Shown here: positions 12,936 through 20,633 of the stretch, piece by piece | Layout: each line of letters starts with the position of its first letter | Position numbering within the stretch: position 1 is the first letter of the stretch | Source: Nitrososphaerota archaeon | GTDB taxonomy: Archaea > Thermoproteota > Nitrososphaeria > Nitrososphaerales > Nitrosopumilaceae | Direction: 5' to 3' | DNA: 34,640 bases | NCBI GenBank assembly: GCA_028867675.1 | Contig: JAGWGA010000018.1 | Location: 1 to 34,640 of the forward strand | The notes under the pieces: model-generated | Seen by the model: only the letters and a program-made list of their open reading frames with translations | What the model was told of the DNA's origin: nothing | Databases searched by the model: none | Position numbers and translations under genes: made by a program

Positions 12936-14003
12936 TTAGCTGTCTCGCTTGCCTTCAACAAATTCAGCAAAGGCGTTCTTTGCTTCAGTGTAAGGCATCT
13001 GAATGGGAGGATGTTTGAAACAGTACGATGAGATACTAGTCATTGGACCGTATAGTTTTCTATCAAGTGCGATCTTTAGTCCCCTTATTGCATCAATCAT
13101 AATTCCTGCACTATTGTAGGCATCAATTACTTTTAATTTGAGATCTAACTTTACAGGAATCTTTCCAAAGTATTTTCCTTCCAAGTTAATGTAACATATT
13201 TTTTCATTATCTATAAAATCAACATAATCACTAGGACCAATTCTCATTGGAATGTCATAGTCAGCCATTGCCTTTACTGCACTAGTCTTGCTTATTCTCT
13301 TATCTTCAAGCCTCTCTTCATCAAGCATGTTGAAGAAATCCATGTCACCACCAATGTTTAATTGATAGGTTCCATCGATTTGTACACCTCTGTCTACGAA
13401 GAGTTTGACAAGTGTCTTGTGAACAACTGTTGCTCCAAGCTGGCTCATCACATCATCACCTGCAAGCGGTATCTTTTTCTCCGCATAGGCCTGTTGCCAT
13501 TTTGGCTCAGATGCAATAAACACTGGAATTGCATTAAGAAATCCTATACCGGCCTCTAGTGCCTGACTTGCATAATGTCTAACTGCGTTGGTACTTCCTA
13601 CAGGGAGATAATTTACTAGCATCTCTGCGCCGGTGTCTTCAAGAACCTTTTTGACGTTAACATCTGGTTCTGAGGAATTTGTAACTATTCGGCTCAAGTG
13701 TCTTCCTAAACCATCAAAGGTTGGGCCCTTTTGTACAGTCACGCCCATGTGAGGAACTTCTGCTACTGTTATAGTGTTATTGGGTTTTGCATAGATTGCC
13801 TCAGATACGTCTTTTCCGACTTTGGTATCTGCAACATCAAATGCAGCCACAACTTCGATATCTCCTGGTTCATACCCACCCAAATTATAGGCAGTAAGGC
13901 CAATAGTATCTTGAGGATTCTCTGAATAGTATTTTGCGCCTTGAATAATTGCCGATGCACAGTTACCCATACCGGCTATGGCAATCTTGATTTTCTTACC
14001 CAA
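12936..14003 (-). CDS. ino1: Myo-inositol-1-phosphate synthase
   Basis: The 355-residue enzyme converts glucose 6-phosphate to inositol 1-phosphate with bound NAD. The N-terminal nucleotide motif GMGNCASAIIQG is the compact archaeal/actinobacterial form, and the family segments GDDVMSQLGATVVHKTL, NIGGDMDFFNM and SDYVDFIDN are present. It lacks the long insertions of eukaryotic INO1. In archaea the product feeds inositol phospholipids and compatible solutes. In actinobacteria it also feeds mycothiol. The start is TTG at 14003, with a TATA-like TTAATATG about 29 nt upstream. The gene is divergent from deoxyhypusine synthase and 83 nt upstream of smc. I see nothing abnormal in the sequence. Confidence 0.93.
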   Translation of the reverse strand: MGKKIKIAIAGMGNCASAIIQGAKYYSENPQDTIGLTAYNLGGYEPGDIEVVAAFDVADTKVGKDVSEAIYAKPNNTITVAEVPHMGVTVQKGPTFDGLGRHLSRIVTNSSEPDVNVKKVLEDTGAEMLVNYLPVGSTNAVRHYASQALEAGIGFLNAIPVFIASEPKWQQAYAEKKIPLAGDDVMSQLGATVVHKTLVKLFVDRGVQIDGTYQLNIGGDMDFFNMLDEERLEDKRISKTSAVKAMADYDIPMRIGPSDYVDFIDNEKICYINLEGKYFGKIPVKLDLKLKVIDAYNSAGIMIDAIRGLKIALDRKLYGPMTSISSYCFKHPPIQMPYTEAKNAFAEFVEGKRDS

Positions 14004-14089: not shown

Positions 14090-15028
14090 ATGATAAAGCC
14101 TGGCAAACCGGTCAAGGATATTTCAATCAAAAAAGGGGATTCCATAGATACAATATTTGATCAAATGTCAAAGTCAGGCGGATTTGAATCAAAAAATCTC
14201 GTTGATGGTCTTAACATTCTAACTGCAATGATAGAAGACAAAAATTGCTTAAAGTTCATGTCATTTGTAGGAGCCGTTGTGTCAACAGGTCTTAGAGGAG
14301 TAATTACAGACATGATAAAAAACAGAATGTGTGATGTAGTGATAACAACATGTGGTGCTTTAGATCATGACATAGCCAGACACTATTCTAATTATCTTGA
14401 AGGATCATTTACTATGGATGATAGTGAGCTTATGGAAGAAGAAATTCATAGATTAGGAAATGTCCTAGTTCCAATGAAAAGTTATGGTCCGCTAATTGAG
14501 GAAAAGATGCAGGCTTTTCTTGAAAAGGCATACAAAGAAGGCAAACGAGAAATGTCAACTCATGATGTAACAAAGATGATCGGAGAGCATTTGGGAGAAG
14601 ATTCGTTTCTTTACTGGGCAAACAAGAATGGCATACCAGTCATAGTTCCAGGAATTATGGATGGTGCAGTTGGAAGTCAAATTTGGATGTTTTCACAAAA
14701 TCATCCTGATTTTAAATTAAACATTGTAACTGATGGAGATTTATTATCAGGATTAATTTTTAAAGCGAAAAAATCTGGTGCGTTGATGATAGGTGGAGGA
14801 ATATCAAAGCATCACACCCTGTGGTGGAATCAATACAGAGAAGGACTTGATTATGCAGTGTATGTCACAACTGCCCAAGAATTTGACGGTAGCTTGAGTG
14901 GAGCACTTGTCAGAGAGGCAATATCATGGGGCAAAGTTACAAAGAATGCAAAACAGACGACAATCCATGCAGAAGCTACTACAATTTTGCCGTTTTTGTA
15001 TTCAGCACTACTTGCTAAACTCAAATAG
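14090..15028 (+). CDS. dys: Deoxyhypusine synthase
   Basis: The 312-residue NAD-dependent enzyme transfers the aminobutyl group of spermidine to a lysine of translation factor aIF5A. Conserved family segments include SFVGAVVSTGLRG, TTCGALDHDIAR, VPGIMDGAVGSQ, MIGGGISKHH and the SWGK tetrapeptide, whose lysine corresponds to the covalent-intermediate lysine of characterised enzymes. The histidine and glycine-rich NAD-binding parts are intact. I chose ATG 14090 over ATG 14075 because the TATA box is 26 nt upstream of 14090. The longer form would add five residues before MIKPGKPV. The 3' end overlaps the convergent GNAT gene by 8 nt. No deoxyhypusine hydroxylase is seen. Confidence 0.94.
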   Translation: MIKPGKPVKDISIKKGDSIDTIFDQMSKSGGFESKNLVDGLNILTAMIEDKNCLKFMSFVGAVVSTGLRGVITDMIKNRMCDVVITTCGALDHDIARHYSNYLEGSFTMDDSELMEEEIHRLGNVLVPMKSYGPLIEEKMQAFLEKAYKEGKREMSTHDVTKMIGEHLGEDSFLYWANKNGIPVIVPGIMDGAVGSQIWMFSQNHPDFKLNIVTDGDLLSGLIFKAKKSGALMIGGGISKHHTLWWNQYREGLDYAVYVTTAQEFDGSLSGALVREAISWGKVTKNAKQTTIHAEATTILPFLYSALLAKLK

Positions 15029-15722
15029 TAAAAATTTTTTTGTCGTAAAGATTCTCAAATCCTAAATTAGAATAGAATTTTGACAGATTATCTTGCTCAT
15101 AGGTCTCAAGCATTAGAAACTCCAGATGCCTAGAATTTACCTCATGTAATGCAAAATCAATCAAAGAAGCAGCCATTCCCTTTCGTTGTCTGCGTGGAAT
15201 AGTTCCAAGACAGTAAAGTCCCAAGATAGAGTCTTTTTCATATAACGCCATGCATGAACTATGTGATTCGTCAACATAGTAATCTACAGAAGAAAGAGAA
15301 TTTTTCAATATAGAATTTACAGGTCCTGCCCACTCTGGACAATCATATGCCTCACAAAAAATTTCAGTCCAGATAGAAACACCATCATGTGTGATTTTAG
15401 TAGCCAAAGGTTTCTTGGATGTAGACGTACTTTTTTTTAATACATGTTGAGTGTCATGATAAGTAAATCCCTTTTCCCCCAACAATTCCTCAAATTCTGG
15501 ATAATCTAGGGAATATACATATGGTCTTGAATTGTTTTTTTGAAATTTCTCTAATGATTCAGAAACCATCTTTTCACTTATACATGATACGTTTGTGAGC
15601 TTGTTAAAAAAAACATCATCTGATAGTTTAGGATTTAAAAATAAAGTACCACATTCCAATTGATTTGGAGTGCTCCAAATTCCAGTAAAATTATTGTCAT
15701 TTGATTCAATTTGCTTGATCAT
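15021..15722 (-). CDS. GNAT-family N-acetyltransferase
   Basis: The 233-residue protein has a clear GNAT domain in its C-terminal half (about 115-233). The acetyl-CoA pyrophosphate loop is GTIPRRQRKGMAASLIDFAL and the terminal motif is FYSNLGFE. The N-terminal 110 residues have no motif I recognise and may be a degenerate second GNAT domain. Its ATG overlaps the stop codon of the CysRS-like gene (ATGA), so the two proteins are made together. Possible substrates are the product of that ligase, a tRNA-linked or free amino acid, or a protein N-terminus. The context makes a cysteine derivative the most interesting candidate. The substrate cannot be read from sequence. Confidence 0.8.
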   Translation of the reverse strand: MIKQIESNDNNFTGIWSTPNQLECGTLFLNPKLSDDVFFNKLTNVSCISEKMVSESLEKFQKNNSRPYVYSLDYPEFEELLGEKGFTYHDTQHVLKKSTSTSKKPLATKITHDGVSIWTEIFCEAYDCPEWAGPVNSILKNSLSSVDYYVDESHSSCMALYEKDSILGLYCLGTIPRRQRKGMAASLIDFALHEVNSRHLEFLMLETYEQDNLSKFYSNLGFENLYDKKIFTI

Positions 15723-16879
15723 ACTTTAATTCCAAAGATATTGCAGATACGGTCAAAATCATTTTTACTTATACTCTTTCCAGTTTTTACTGCAATACAG
15801 ATTCTTTCCAGGATTTCCAAGGCAACTGGAGAATTAAGATCATCATTTAGTGATTCTAACAATTCCTGTATCAAGTTTGTAATATCATCATGTGTCATGT
15901 TAGAAATTTGGGATCGAGTTAAGAGAATTAAATCCAATAGAGATTTTTTCATTAACAAGTCATTTTCAGAAAAATCAAAATCATCTCGATAATGTTTAGA
16001 AAAGATGCATAGTCGTACAAGATTATGACCATATTTTTTTATAAGATCTTTAACCCAGACTACATTTCCAAGCGATTTAGACATCTTCTCACCTTGTGAC
16101 AAAACAAGACCTACGTGTACCCAGGCTTTGACAGGCATCTCAGAATCTGACAAGAGTTGATATTGTGCAAGATGTGCCTCATGATGAGGATACAAAAGTT
16201 CCCTTGCACCTCCATGAACATCGTAATTTTTACCAAAATTTTCCATAGCAACAGCAGTATCTTGCATATGCCACCAAGGAATACCTTCACCAAGTTCACT
16301 CTTCCATGAAAAATCAAAATCATCAGTACAATTCCATAGCATTATATCTTCAGGGTTTTTCTTTCCAGGACCAATATCTAATCGATGCAAACTTAGATCT
16401 TGACGGGTTTGGTGAGAAATCTTGCCATAGTTTTTTACTTTAGATATATCCAAGTATGCATTTCCATGAGCAGTATAAGCAACTTGTTTTTGGATTAATG
16501 TCATAATCTCTTTTTCTATATGTTGAACATAATCTGAAACAAAAGCAAGTCTGTTTACACTATGTATGTTAAGAGAATCAAGATCAGATAGAAATGCTGA
16601 TGCATAAAATTTAGCAATCTCTATGTAAGTAGAAGAATTTTCCCGAGCTTTGTTAAAGACATTTTGATTAATATCTGTCAGATTTACAAGAGTATCAGTT
16701 GCAAGTCCTTGATCATTTAAAACTCTAGACAAAAGATCATAAGTCAAAAATATACGAGCATGTCCCAGATGAGTAAAATCATAAACTGTAGGACCACAGA
16801 TGAATATTTTTACATGGTTTTTTTCAAATGGGGTAAAGTCTTCCTTGGAAGAAGAAAAAGAATTAAAAAGTTTGAGCAT
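15719..16879 (-). CDS. CysRS-like cysteine-activating enzyme lacking the anticodon-binding domain
   Basis: The 386-residue class I ligase of the CysRS/MshC superfamily activates cysteine as an adenylate. HIGH is THLGH (36-40) and KMSKS is at 265-269. C28 matches the first zinc ligand, but the position of the second zinc cysteine (WHIEC in E. coli) is D207 (WHMQD). The HHENE box is HHEAH, putting H236 in place of the glutamate. The protein ends just after the DALR-like segment LNDDLNSPVALEIL, so the usual C-terminal anticodon-binding part (about 70 residues) is missing, as in the mycothiol ligase MshC. It is preceded by a RAM-domain gene (8-nt gap) and followed by a GNAT gene (ATGA overlap). 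It could be a divergent true CysRS or a small-molecule ligase. Annotation pipelines would call it cysS. Confidence 0.85.
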   Translation of the reverse strand: MLKLFNSFSSSKEDFTPFEKNHVKIFICGPTVYDFTHLGHARIFLTYDLLSRVLNDQGLATDTLVNLTDINQNVFNKARENSSTYIEIAKFYASAFLSDLDSLNIHSVNRLAFVSDYVQHIEKEIMTLIQKQVAYTAHGNAYLDISKVKNYGKISHQTRQDLSLHRLDIGPGKKNPEDIMLWNCTDDFDFSWKSELGEGIPWWHMQDTAVAMENFGKNYDVHGGARELLYPHHEAHLAQYQLLSDSEMPVKAWVHVGLVLSQGEKMSKSLGNVVWVKDLIKKYGHNLVRLCIFSKHYRDDFDFSENDLLMKKSLLDLILLTRSQISNMTHDDITNLIQELLESLNDDLNSPVALEILERICIAVKTGKSISKNDFDRICNIFGIKV

Positions 16880-17201: not shown

Positions 17202-17918
17202 ATGGCAAATGAGGTATTTGTAAGAGAAATAGCTCCAATCGATGTAAAGAACGGATATCTAATTGATGGCTTTCCTTATACGGGACTGGCTAATGCAATA
17301 GCAACTGAATCACTTATCAACAATACTTCTCAGTTTGAACTGGCAGGTGTAATTGACTCTGATCTATTTCCGCCAATCAGTATAGTAAGAGAAGAAGTGC
17401 CAAATTTTCCAGCACGAATTCTAGTTAACAAAGATCTCAAAGTGGCAGTATTTTCATCATACCTTACTCCTCATGAATCAATCCATCGTCAAGTAGCACA
17501 GACCATGCTGGAGTGGGCAGAAGATCATAAAGTTTCTTACATCATAAGCAGCTCTGCAATAAAGACAGATGAGGAATCTCCCTTTGTAATTGGAGTTGGG
17601 AGCACAGATGAAGCAAAGAAGAAACTTCGCGATTCAGGTATTCCAGTATTAAAAAATGGGACAATCCCAGGAATTCCAGGAATTCTGCTTAACGAGGGAT
17701 TGATATCAAATATCAATGTCATTGTACTTTTGTGTAAAGCCAGAGATTCAGGTCCTGATTTTAGAGCAGGTGCTGAAATTTGTATGGCAATGTCAAAACT
17801 TGTTCCAGGAGCTTCGTGTGATCTCAAATCATTACTAAACGAGGCAGAAGGTATAGAAGAGAATCTCAAGCAAACAGAAAAAGATGCAGGTCCACTCCGG
17901 GATGCAATTTACGGATGA
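17202..17918 (+). CDS. PAC2-family proteasome assembly chaperone / activator (Pba-like)
   Basis: The 238-residue PAC2 fold protein has the family opening (GYLIDGFPYTGLANAIATESLI), the VRIL-like strand, and the GIPGILLNEGL and CKARDSGPDFRAGAEI segments. Archaeal homologues (PbaA/PbaB) relate to 20S proteasome assembly and ATP-independent activation. The protein ends in I-Y-G, a hydrophobic-Tyr-any (HbYX) tail that docks into pockets of the 20S alpha ring. A leaderless promoter lies 27 nt upstream. The next gene overlaps it by an ATGA. Proteasome subunits themselves are not in the window. Confidence 0.85.
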   Translation: MANEVFVREIAPIDVKNGYLIDGFPYTGLANAIATESLINNTSQFELAGVIDSDLFPPISIVREEVPNFPARILVNKDLKVAVFSSYLTPHESIHRQVAQTMLEWAEDHKVSYIISSSAIKTDEESPFVIGVGSTDEAKKKLRDSGIPVLKNGTIPGIPGILLNEGLISNINVIVLLCKARDSGPDFRAGAEICMAMSKLVPGASCDLKSLLNEAEGIEENLKQTEKDAGPLRDAIYG

Positions 17919-18163
17919 GTTATCACGAAAGAGAAATTTCAAAAGAGAGTCTGGAGAAATTTTTGAGGATCTTAGATTCAGATGAAGGTATCAGAATAGA
18001 TGACAAGTCTGGTCACATATTCATCAACAAAACTTCAAAGAGATATTGCATTAGCATGTCAAATTTAGGAAGAGAAGAATTTGTTTACAGGAATAGTGTT
18101 GAAGAAGTCATAGATTTCCTAAAAAAAGAAACAAGTCAAACATCAAAGATTTTTTCATATTAG
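17915..18163 (+). CDS. Small hypothetical protein coupled to PAC2
   Basis: The 82-residue soluble protein is of unknown function. It is charged, with a predicted helix-strand-strand-helix pattern: ERE.SKESLEKFLRIL, then IRIDDKSGHIFINK, RYCISMSNLG, and the final helix VEEVIDFLKKE. Its ATG overlaps the PAC2 stop (ATGA), so it should be made with PAC2 and may act with it. It ends FSY, which does not fit the HbYX rule because the tyrosine is last. No family name is recognised. Confidence 0.7.
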   Translation: MSYHEREISKESLEKFLRILDSDEGIRIDDKSGHIFINKTSKRYCISMSNLGREEFVYRNSVEEVIDFLKKETSQTSKIFSY

Positions 18164-19056: not shown

Positions 19057-20151
19057 GTGTCAAGTCGAGTTGTATTTCACATTGACTTTGATTATTTTTA
19101 TGCCCAGTGTGAAGAAATTCGCAAGCCAGATTTGAAAACAAGGCCTATTGCAGTGTGCGTATATTCTGATCGTGGAGGAGACAGCGGGGCAATTGCAACT
19201 GCAAATTACATAGCAAGAAAGTATGGAGTAAAATCCGGAATGCCAATTAAATTTGCAAAAAAGAAACTCGAGGAAGTTCCAGAAGCAGTTTTCTTGCCTA
19301 CAGATTTTGATTATTATACCGAAGTCTCAGAAAATGCTATGAGTATAATCAGAAGTCATGCGGATGTTTTCGAATATGTTGGAAGAGATGAGGCATATCT
19401 AGATGTTACAAACAGAACCGAGTCTGATTTTAAAAAGGCTGCACATTTGGCACAACAACTAAAGAATTCCCTACGTAGTACAGTGAAATTATCAAGCACC
19501 ATTGGAATCTCTTCAAACAAACTTGTCTCTAAGATTGCTTCTGATTTCAAAAAACCAGATGGTCTTACAATTGTTGAACCAGAAAATATAGAATTATTTT
19601 TAGATCCTTTACCAATCAGAGTAATTCCAGGAATTGGTAAAAAATCCGAAGAGAAATTTTCTGAAATGGGGTTTGAGACAATATCACAACTCCGTGGTAT
19701 GGATGTCTTTACACTAAATGAATTATTTGGACGAAAAGTTGGAACATACATCTACAATGCAGCACGTGGGATAGATGAAGATCCTGTCTCGCCAAGACAT
19801 GACCCTATTCAATACAGCAGAATCATAACATTAAAGCAAGATTCCAAAGATTTTGATTTTCTGGTAAAGGATTTGGAAAAATTATGTGAGGATTTGCATC
19901 AGACAATAATCAAGGACAATCTACTCTTCAAGTCAGTAGGCATACAATTTGTACAATCAGACTTGTCAAACAGAACAAAATCAAAGACACTAAAAAATCA
20001 CACATCCGGATTAGACGAATTGAAAAAAACCGCAATTTCATTACTTAGAGAATCCCTTGTGGATCAGAGATTACCAATAAGACGCCTGGGAGTAAAAGTT
20101 TCAGATTTTTCTCAAGTTTCAGGACAAGTAGACATTACAAGATTTTTTTAA
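19057..20151 (+). CDS. dinB: DNA polymerase IV (Y family, lesion bypass)
   Basis: The 364-residue Y-family polymerase is close in length to Sulfolobus Dpo4. Palm motifs are FHIDFDYFYAQCEE (first metal site, D10) and YVGRDEAYLDVT (the usual SxDExxxD box, here GRDEAYLD, keeping the D-E pair). SSTIGISSNKLVSKIASDFKKPDG and the helix-hairpin-helix IPGIGKKSEEKF follow, then the little finger. The C-terminus QVDITRFF (357-364) is a perfect PCNA-interacting peptide. The start is GTG at 19057. The stop (TAA) shares the TTAA with the stop of the convergent HExxH gene. The protein copies past DNA lesions while held on PCNA. Confidence 0.95.
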   Translation: MSSRVVFHIDFDYFYAQCEEIRKPDLKTRPIAVCVYSDRGGDSGAIATANYIARKYGVKSGMPIKFAKKKLEEVPEAVFLPTDFDYYTEVSENAMSIIRSHADVFEYVGRDEAYLDVTNRTESDFKKAAHLAQQLKNSLRSTVKLSSTIGISSNKLVSKIASDFKKPDGLTIVEPENIELFLDPLPIRVIPGIGKKSEEKFSEMGFETISQLRGMDVFTLNELFGRKVGTYIYNAARGIDEDPVSPRHDPIQYSRIITLKQDSKDFDFLVKDLEKLCEDLHQTIIKDNLLFKSVGIQFVQSDLSNRTKSKTLKNHTSGLDELKKTAISLLRESLVDQRLPIRRLGVKVSDFSQVSGQVDITRFF

Positions 20152-20633
20152 ATTTTTATGCCAACACTAGATGCCAGTCTTTTGTGTTCATCTGAAGAGA
20201 TCCATTCTACATGTAAATAATCAAATATTTCTGAATCATTCATGCCTAGTCTTCTTGCTTCTTGCACTGCAATATCATATGCTTCTACTTCTGTTGGCCT
20301 ATCAACGTAATGATATGATGAATCGTAAAGATCAAGCCCTTGCCTTTGTTGTTTTACATGCACCAATTCATGAATGATATCCAGATAGAGAACTTTTTTT
20401 TCTGAATTTTTGAGATGGTCTTTTCCCACTACAATGGATGCATCCTCATTTTTAACATGCATGTAATGACTACTACCATCTACAACAACTACTGTTTTTT
20501 CAAATACATCATCAAGAATTTCTTTTGATTTGAAAACTTTTAAGAGAATTTCTACCGATTTTAGATTCACAAATATGTCTTCTAGATTATAGTGACCATC
20601 TTGTAGATCTCTATTTACTTTTATCTGATTCAA
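20148..20633 (-). CDS. HExxH zinc metallopeptidase-like protein
   Basis: The 161-residue protein contains HELVHVKQ (H88, E89, H92), the zinc-binding and catalytic motif of metallopeptidases. A downstream RPTEVEAYDIA segment has glutamates (E115, E117) that could be the third ligand. It has no signal peptide or membrane segment, so it is probably cytoplasmic. The start is TTG at 20633, overlapping the archaeosortase gene by 23 nt. The reading frame stays open a little further upstream, so the start is uncertain. It is last in the nreA-archaeosortase operon. Substrate and family name are unknown. Confidence 0.7.
   Translation of the reverse strand: MNQIKVNRDLQDGHYNLEDIFVNLKSVEILLKVFKSKEILDDVFEKTVVVVDGSSHYMHVKNEDASIVVGKDHLKNSEKKVLYLDIIHELVHVKQQRQGLDLYDSSYHYVDRPTEVEAYDIAVQEARRLGMNDSEIFDYLHVEWISSDEHKRLASSVGIKI

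Follow-up and report, generated by a model that had tools for sequence, protein, structure and literature searches.

The closest described systems belong to the mycothiol pathway of actinobacteria, in which MshC is the cysteine ligase and MshD is the finishing N-acetyltransferase. A ligase derived from cysteinyl-tRNA synthetase (CysRS) is as such already known from MshC, whose zinc is coordinated by the substrate thiol and by no protein residues beyond Cys43, Cys231 and His256 (PMC9736012). CysRS* of Desulfobacterales, also without the anticodon domain, charges tRNA and is coupled with SelC*/SelB* (PMC9437257). For archaea, a 2020 review of thiols reported that a search for mycothiol homologues gave a single MshD match, from uncultivated samples, and concluded that the archaea sequenced up to then lack mycothiol (PMC7278568). 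A study of the evolution of ammonia-oxidising archaea names, among thiol pathways, the genes for ergothioneine and gamma-glutamylcysteine; the passages concerned do not mention a CysRS-like ligase (PMC7554672).

In this study, a stretch of 34,640 nt from a Nitrososphaerota archaeon (referred to as the window) was analysed. At 15719..16879 on the minus strand, an ORF of 386 residues with no internal stops encodes a short Asp-type CysRS paralogue, predicted to be an amino-acid (probably cysteine):amine ligase. The protein scored 264 bits against the CysRS catalytic domain (PF01406), 300 bits against cysS (TIGR00435, cut-off 340) and 238 bits against MshC (TIGR03447, cut-off 485.1), reaching neither of the two curated scores. 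The class I HIGH motif, in the form HLGH (residues 37-40, 16760..16771), and KMSKS (residues 265-269, 16073..16087), both on the minus strand, were intact upon translation and alignment. An AlphaFold2 model (pLDDT 95) matched MshC (8hfn) over its full length, with TM scores of 0.92/0.86 at 2.5 Å. Against CysRS 1u0b the TM score was 0.93 by query and 0.78 by target, and the C-terminal anticodon-binding domain was missing. The same genome encodes elsewhere a canonical CysRS of 467 aa with the C,C,H,E zinc site (G000:C147), and a second CysRS was present in nearly all short-form genomes of the order sample.

The four zinc-site positions are encoded on the minus strand by the codons for C28 (16796..16798), D207 (16259..16261), H232 (16184..16186) and H236 (16172..16174). 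In a gap-free profile alignment with E. coli CysRS (1li5) and other CysRSs, WHMQD(207) aligned on WHIEC(209) and PHHEAH(236) on PHHENE(238), giving the window protein the set C28, D207, H232 and H236, which does not match the CysRS set C28, C209, H234 and E238. The second of these positions is C209 in E. coli CysRS and C231 in MshC; the alignment to solved structures placed D207 there. The short forms compared comprised 79 distinct order-wide sequences and 28 from family f8, 26 of them new, making 105 distinct homologues. C28, D207 and H232 showed zero variation (79/79 and 28/28). In the order-wide set T31 and T68, equivalent to the amino-group binders T46 and T83 of MshC, were invariant as well. 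Position 236 differed among homologues, being E39 H36 Q2 I1 L1 in the order-wide set and H7 L7 I10 Q2 D1 V1 in family f8, although H236 was fixed in all 29 other relatives from the window's own family (f1) compared with it. On the short-family tree, position 236 changed at least four times and D207 zero times, and the Glu-to-His change is thus a later one at a relaxed site. The dN/dS of the short ligase was 0.10-0.23, indicating purifying selection. Because C28, D207 and H232 are invariant and dN/dS is so low, chance or decay is excluded.

These results agree in part with an earlier, sequence-only reading of the gene, which had named the same four residues by eye, noted intact HIGH and KMSKS motifs, and argued against decay. 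Its central proposal was a paired, compensated exchange of Cys for Asp and Glu for His, with D207 and H236 expected to be invariant together; D207 behaved as expected, whereas H236 showed the free variation that the reading itself had named as a refutation, and the pairing was therefore rejected. A Streptomyces MshC-like protein (L173) carries Gly at the equivalent of position 238, which, together with the three-residue zinc site of MshC, makes a free fourth position fit a ligase. The conserved Cys-Asp-His triad is accordingly the counterpart of Cys-Cys-His in MshC. As a separate observation, short ligases of genus g13 (L207 = G049, L312-L316) have KMSNS and a hydrophobic residue (Ile/Val) at 236 but retain C, D and H, and the neighbouring acetyltransferase is present at those loci where it was checked; they represent a diverging or altered version.

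In a maximum-likelihood tree rooted at its midpoint, the short forms (about 385-420 aa, without the anticodon-binding domain) made up a monophyletic Nitrososphaerales family with an SH-aLRT of 99, which branches from within the full-length archaeal CysRSs of Asp-type; MshC lay on a long branch in the C-type half. Since the short clade is placed away from MshC, the ligase-like truncation occurred separately from that of MshC. Other archaeal short CysRS paralogues, of C-type and 386-406 aa, were observed at L169 (G215, Micrarchaeota), L170 and L172, and that of L169 grouped with the MshC-like L173 (SH-aLRT 99, long branch).

The Asp residue is not peculiar to the window enzyme, a possibility that was rejected when full-length C,D,H,E CysRSs were found to be widespread. 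A wide scan detected CysRSs of 420-485 aa with WHIEDTA in Methanobrevibacter, Methanoregula, Thermoplasmatales, Micrarchaeota, Zestosphaera, several CPR bacteria and one Streptomyces. In many of the genomes scanned this was the sole CysRS found, including Methanobrevibacter (L079, L083, L261-L284), CPR bacteria (L068, L074, L075, L093, L141), other archaea, and the genomes L071, L094 and L142. Each of 26 Methanobrevibacter genomes searched had one CysRS locus, with Asp at the site in all 24 that were readable, and SepRS was not detected at the curated cut-off in 25 of the 26. As the Asp-type enzyme is the only CysRS in whole genera, Asp by itself is compatible with cysteine activation. In the tree, Cys-to-Asp appears as an old trait of one CysRS lineage, the midpoint root leaving the direction of change at deep nodes unfixed. 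In the Streptomyces genome, which additionally encodes an MshC-like protein and a CysRS of the C-type, the Asp-type CysRS (L091:7998-9353) has an ATP-grasp gene and an AMP-binding domain in its vicinity; it is possibly a resistance copy or a biosynthetic ligase.

Directly downstream of the ligase gene, an acetyltransferase of 233 aa (15021..15722, minus strand) is encoded, the start codon of which overlaps the ligase stop codon (ATGA, read directly in the window). It matched Acetyltransf_10 above the cut-off, and its model (pLDDT 81) showed a tandem GNAT fold. MshD (1ozp and 2c27) was among the significant fold matches, not at the top; the best fold and profile matches were other tandem or generic GNATs, and the best score against MshD (TIGR03448) was a weak 16 bits (cut-off 163). 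A generic acetyl-CoA loop is retained, and the fold matches include Sbb17, a peptide synthase of GNAT-like fold that depends on aminoacyl-tRNA. The GNAT gene directly followed the short ligase at 36 of the 37 loci in the order-level set and at 21 of the 27 f8 loci that could be scored, equal to 55 of 62 distinct loci. Six f8 loci (L294, L296-L300) keep the short ligase and have no adjacent GNAT, and none was adjacent at the two full-length Asp-type CysRS loci examined. Hosts of the gene pair are soil and freshwater archaea; within its family, most genera lack the ligase gene.

Directly upstream of the ligase lies a gene for an 81-aa protein with an Lrp/AsnC ligand-binding domain (PF01037; 16888..17133, minus strand), found there in the window's lineage only, mostly at f1 loci. 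A divergently oriented gene (17915..18163, plus strand), present at 29 of 39 loci including the window, encodes a conserved 82-aa protein with no recognised fold and no match in Pfam or the PDB; its family has 82-119 aa and an invariant D..G.R, and is retained at L296, where GNAT is not adjacent. At 20148-20633 on the minus strand, a 161-aa HELVH-containing protein with no Pfam family above cut-off is encoded, and its gene directly follows GNAT in several deeper lineages (L196, L210, L211, L212, L214). No tRNA gene was linked to the operon in the window or adjacent to it across 36 loci.

Genes for the mycothiol acceptor were also searched for. The genome (97.5% complete) gave no match to the MshB-like PIG-L deacetylase (PF02585), the presence of which was uncorrelated with the ligase in family f1, and a true mycothiol pathway was rejected on these grounds. 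Because PIG-L is absent from the genome and the review cited above reports no mycothiol genes in archaea, the product is probably not mycothiol. An inositol-3-phosphate synthase (MIPS) is encoded at 12936..14003 on the minus strand (TIGR03450, 403.7 bits, below the 638 cut-off). Almost every f1 genome has MIPS, whether or not it carries the ligase, so its presence is uninformative for mycothiol; MIPS is a neighbour only in the f1 and f8 lineages, and was not accepted as proof of an inositol acceptor. A second MIPS-like gene was found in 26 of 31 ligase-bearing f1 genomes vs 0 of 120 without the ligase, and was dropped as a pathway partner when, across the order, genomes that have the ligase and genomes that lack it proved to carry the gene at about the same frequency. 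This divergent gene, L229:5025-6092 in the window's genome (G000:C143) and common across the order, belongs to a sulfur-assimilation cluster, with neighbours named by eye as cysteine synthase, TusA, thioredoxin reductase, Thi4, sulfite reductase and rhodanese-like genes. Replacement by gamma-glutamylcysteine was likewise rejected, with GCS2 in only 2 of 61 genomes and no anticorrelation.

The reading we favour, which may equally prove right or wrong, is that the 386-aa protein is a tRNA-independent amino-acid ligase paired with an N-acetylating GNAT, an analogue of MshC and MshD. It would have arisen by duplication of an Asp-type archaeal CysRS, followed by loss of the anticodon-binding domain. 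Cysteine would probably be activated as the adenylate (cysteinyl-AMP), with its thiol on a C28-D207-H232 metal site matching C43-C231-H256 of MshC, and then passed to the amine of a small acceptor; the tandem GNAT, presumably co-transcribed given the gene overlap, would N-acetylate the newly attached amine, as MshD does. Parts of this scheme differ in strength. The short protein is probably not an enzyme of translation, and its metal site has probably been retained. With somewhat less confidence, the substrate is taken to be cysteine, and a small molecule is favoured to a similar degree as the acceptor. More doubtful, and proposed here tentatively, is that an N-acetylcysteinyl amide serves as a new low-molecular-weight thiol in Nitrososphaerota, non-marine ammonia oxidisers among them, and that they make it with an Asp-type-derived ligase convergent with MshC and a finishing GNAT of their own.

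Several observations count against the ligase model: no acceptor-making gene was consistently linked to the ligase in the neighbourhoods, the GNAT is closest to non-MshD GNATs, and the six f8 loci lack it. In addition, the anticodon-less CysRS* charges tRNA (PMC9437257), and replacement of C209 by Asp in E. coli CysRS strongly reduces translation activity (PMC10655014). The former raises the case of an additional CysRS with a specialised role, charging tRNA-Cys or some special tRNA with no readout of the anticodon, in the manner of CysRS*/SelC*, the GNAT acetylating the aminoacyl-tRNA or using it as a donor. Intact HIGH and KMSKS motifs would suit such an enzyme, as would the match to Sbb17 and the probable role of the parent Asp-type CysRSs in translation. 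However, none of the 36 neighbourhoods has a tRNA gene coupled to the operon, a full CysRS coexists in the genome, and the acetyl-CoA loop of the GNAT is of the generic kind, and we consider this explanation unlikely. Impairment of the E. coli C209D enzyme, along with a site that has given up one thiolate and, in many family members, the fourth ligand too, could instead mean that the C-D-H site takes another amino acid (e.g. serine, diaminopropionate or aspartate) or holds a different metal. Such a ligase for a non-cysteine substrate seems improbable: Asp does not exclude cysteine where the sole CysRS of whole genera carries it, and the amino-group contacts T31 and T68 are unchanged.

The coordinated exchange of two zinc ligands proposed in the sequence-only reading would leave the protein a CysRS in which the changes compensate each other and retune Cys/Ser discrimination. 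Asp and His are both able to bind zinc and H236 is constant within f1, but the pair is contradicted by the free variation at 236 beside a fixed D207, and C,D,H,E enzymes are widespread. A translation role with altered discrimination also fits poorly with the separate canonical CysRS, the missing anticodon domain and an operon shared with an acetyltransferase, and this explanation is very improbable. The KMSNS motif and Ile/Val at 236 in G049 and its g13 relatives, and the absence of the gene from the majority of genera in its family, would be expected of a regulator without catalytic activity or a gene in the course of being lost; in the window's lineage the catalytic motifs are intact and dN/dS is 0.10-0.23, and this can hardly apply.

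In the literature searched, no description of a CysRS-derived ligase from Thaumarchaeota was found, and neither this lineage nor its Asp site, its archaeal hosts or its GNAT operon turned up. Nor was a paper found on Asp at the second zinc position of CysRS, although this does not prove that none exists. As the window protein falls below both the MshC and cysS cut-offs, searches for mycothiol homologues would miss the short family. Should the protein prove to be a cysteine ligase, a thiol pathway could be tested for in archaea that are abundant in the environment, and ligases would have arisen from CysRS at least twice. That the sole CysRS of whole genera has Asp where other CysRSs have the second zinc cysteine challenges the view of the C,C,H,E site as universal, and these Asp-type enzymes offer a natural test of zinc-site variability.

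Compared with known systems, the window protein resembles CysRS* in being an anticodon-less CysRS copy alongside a normal CysRS, and differs in that CysRS* is genetically coupled with SelC*/SelB* whereas the window operon has no linked tRNA gene (PMC9437257). With CysRS (TIGR00435) it shares the catalytic domain, HIGH, KMSKS and C28/H232, and D207 is common to the full-length Asp-type enzymes; unlike CysRS, it has no anticodon-binding domain, scores below the cysS cut-off and is encoded in addition to a housekeeping CysRS. The partner resembles MshD (TIGR03448) in its tandem GNAT fold, active C-terminal half and matches to 1ozp and 2c27, and differs in scoring far below the MshD cut-off and in that other tandem GNATs rank above MshD. 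With respect to MshC (TIGR03447), the second ligand is Asp instead of Cys (triad Cys-Asp-His vs Cys-Cys-His), the short clade comes from Asp-type archaeal CysRSs while MshC is in the C-type clade, and the genome is without an MshB-like deacetylase; the window family is accordingly a variant and not a member of MshC. Both are nevertheless CysRS-derived proteins (MshC about 410 aa) without the anticodon domain, matching each other over the full-length fold, with three invariant metal positions (the metal site of the window protein being predicted), a free fourth position and a GNAT partner, which for MshC is MshD.
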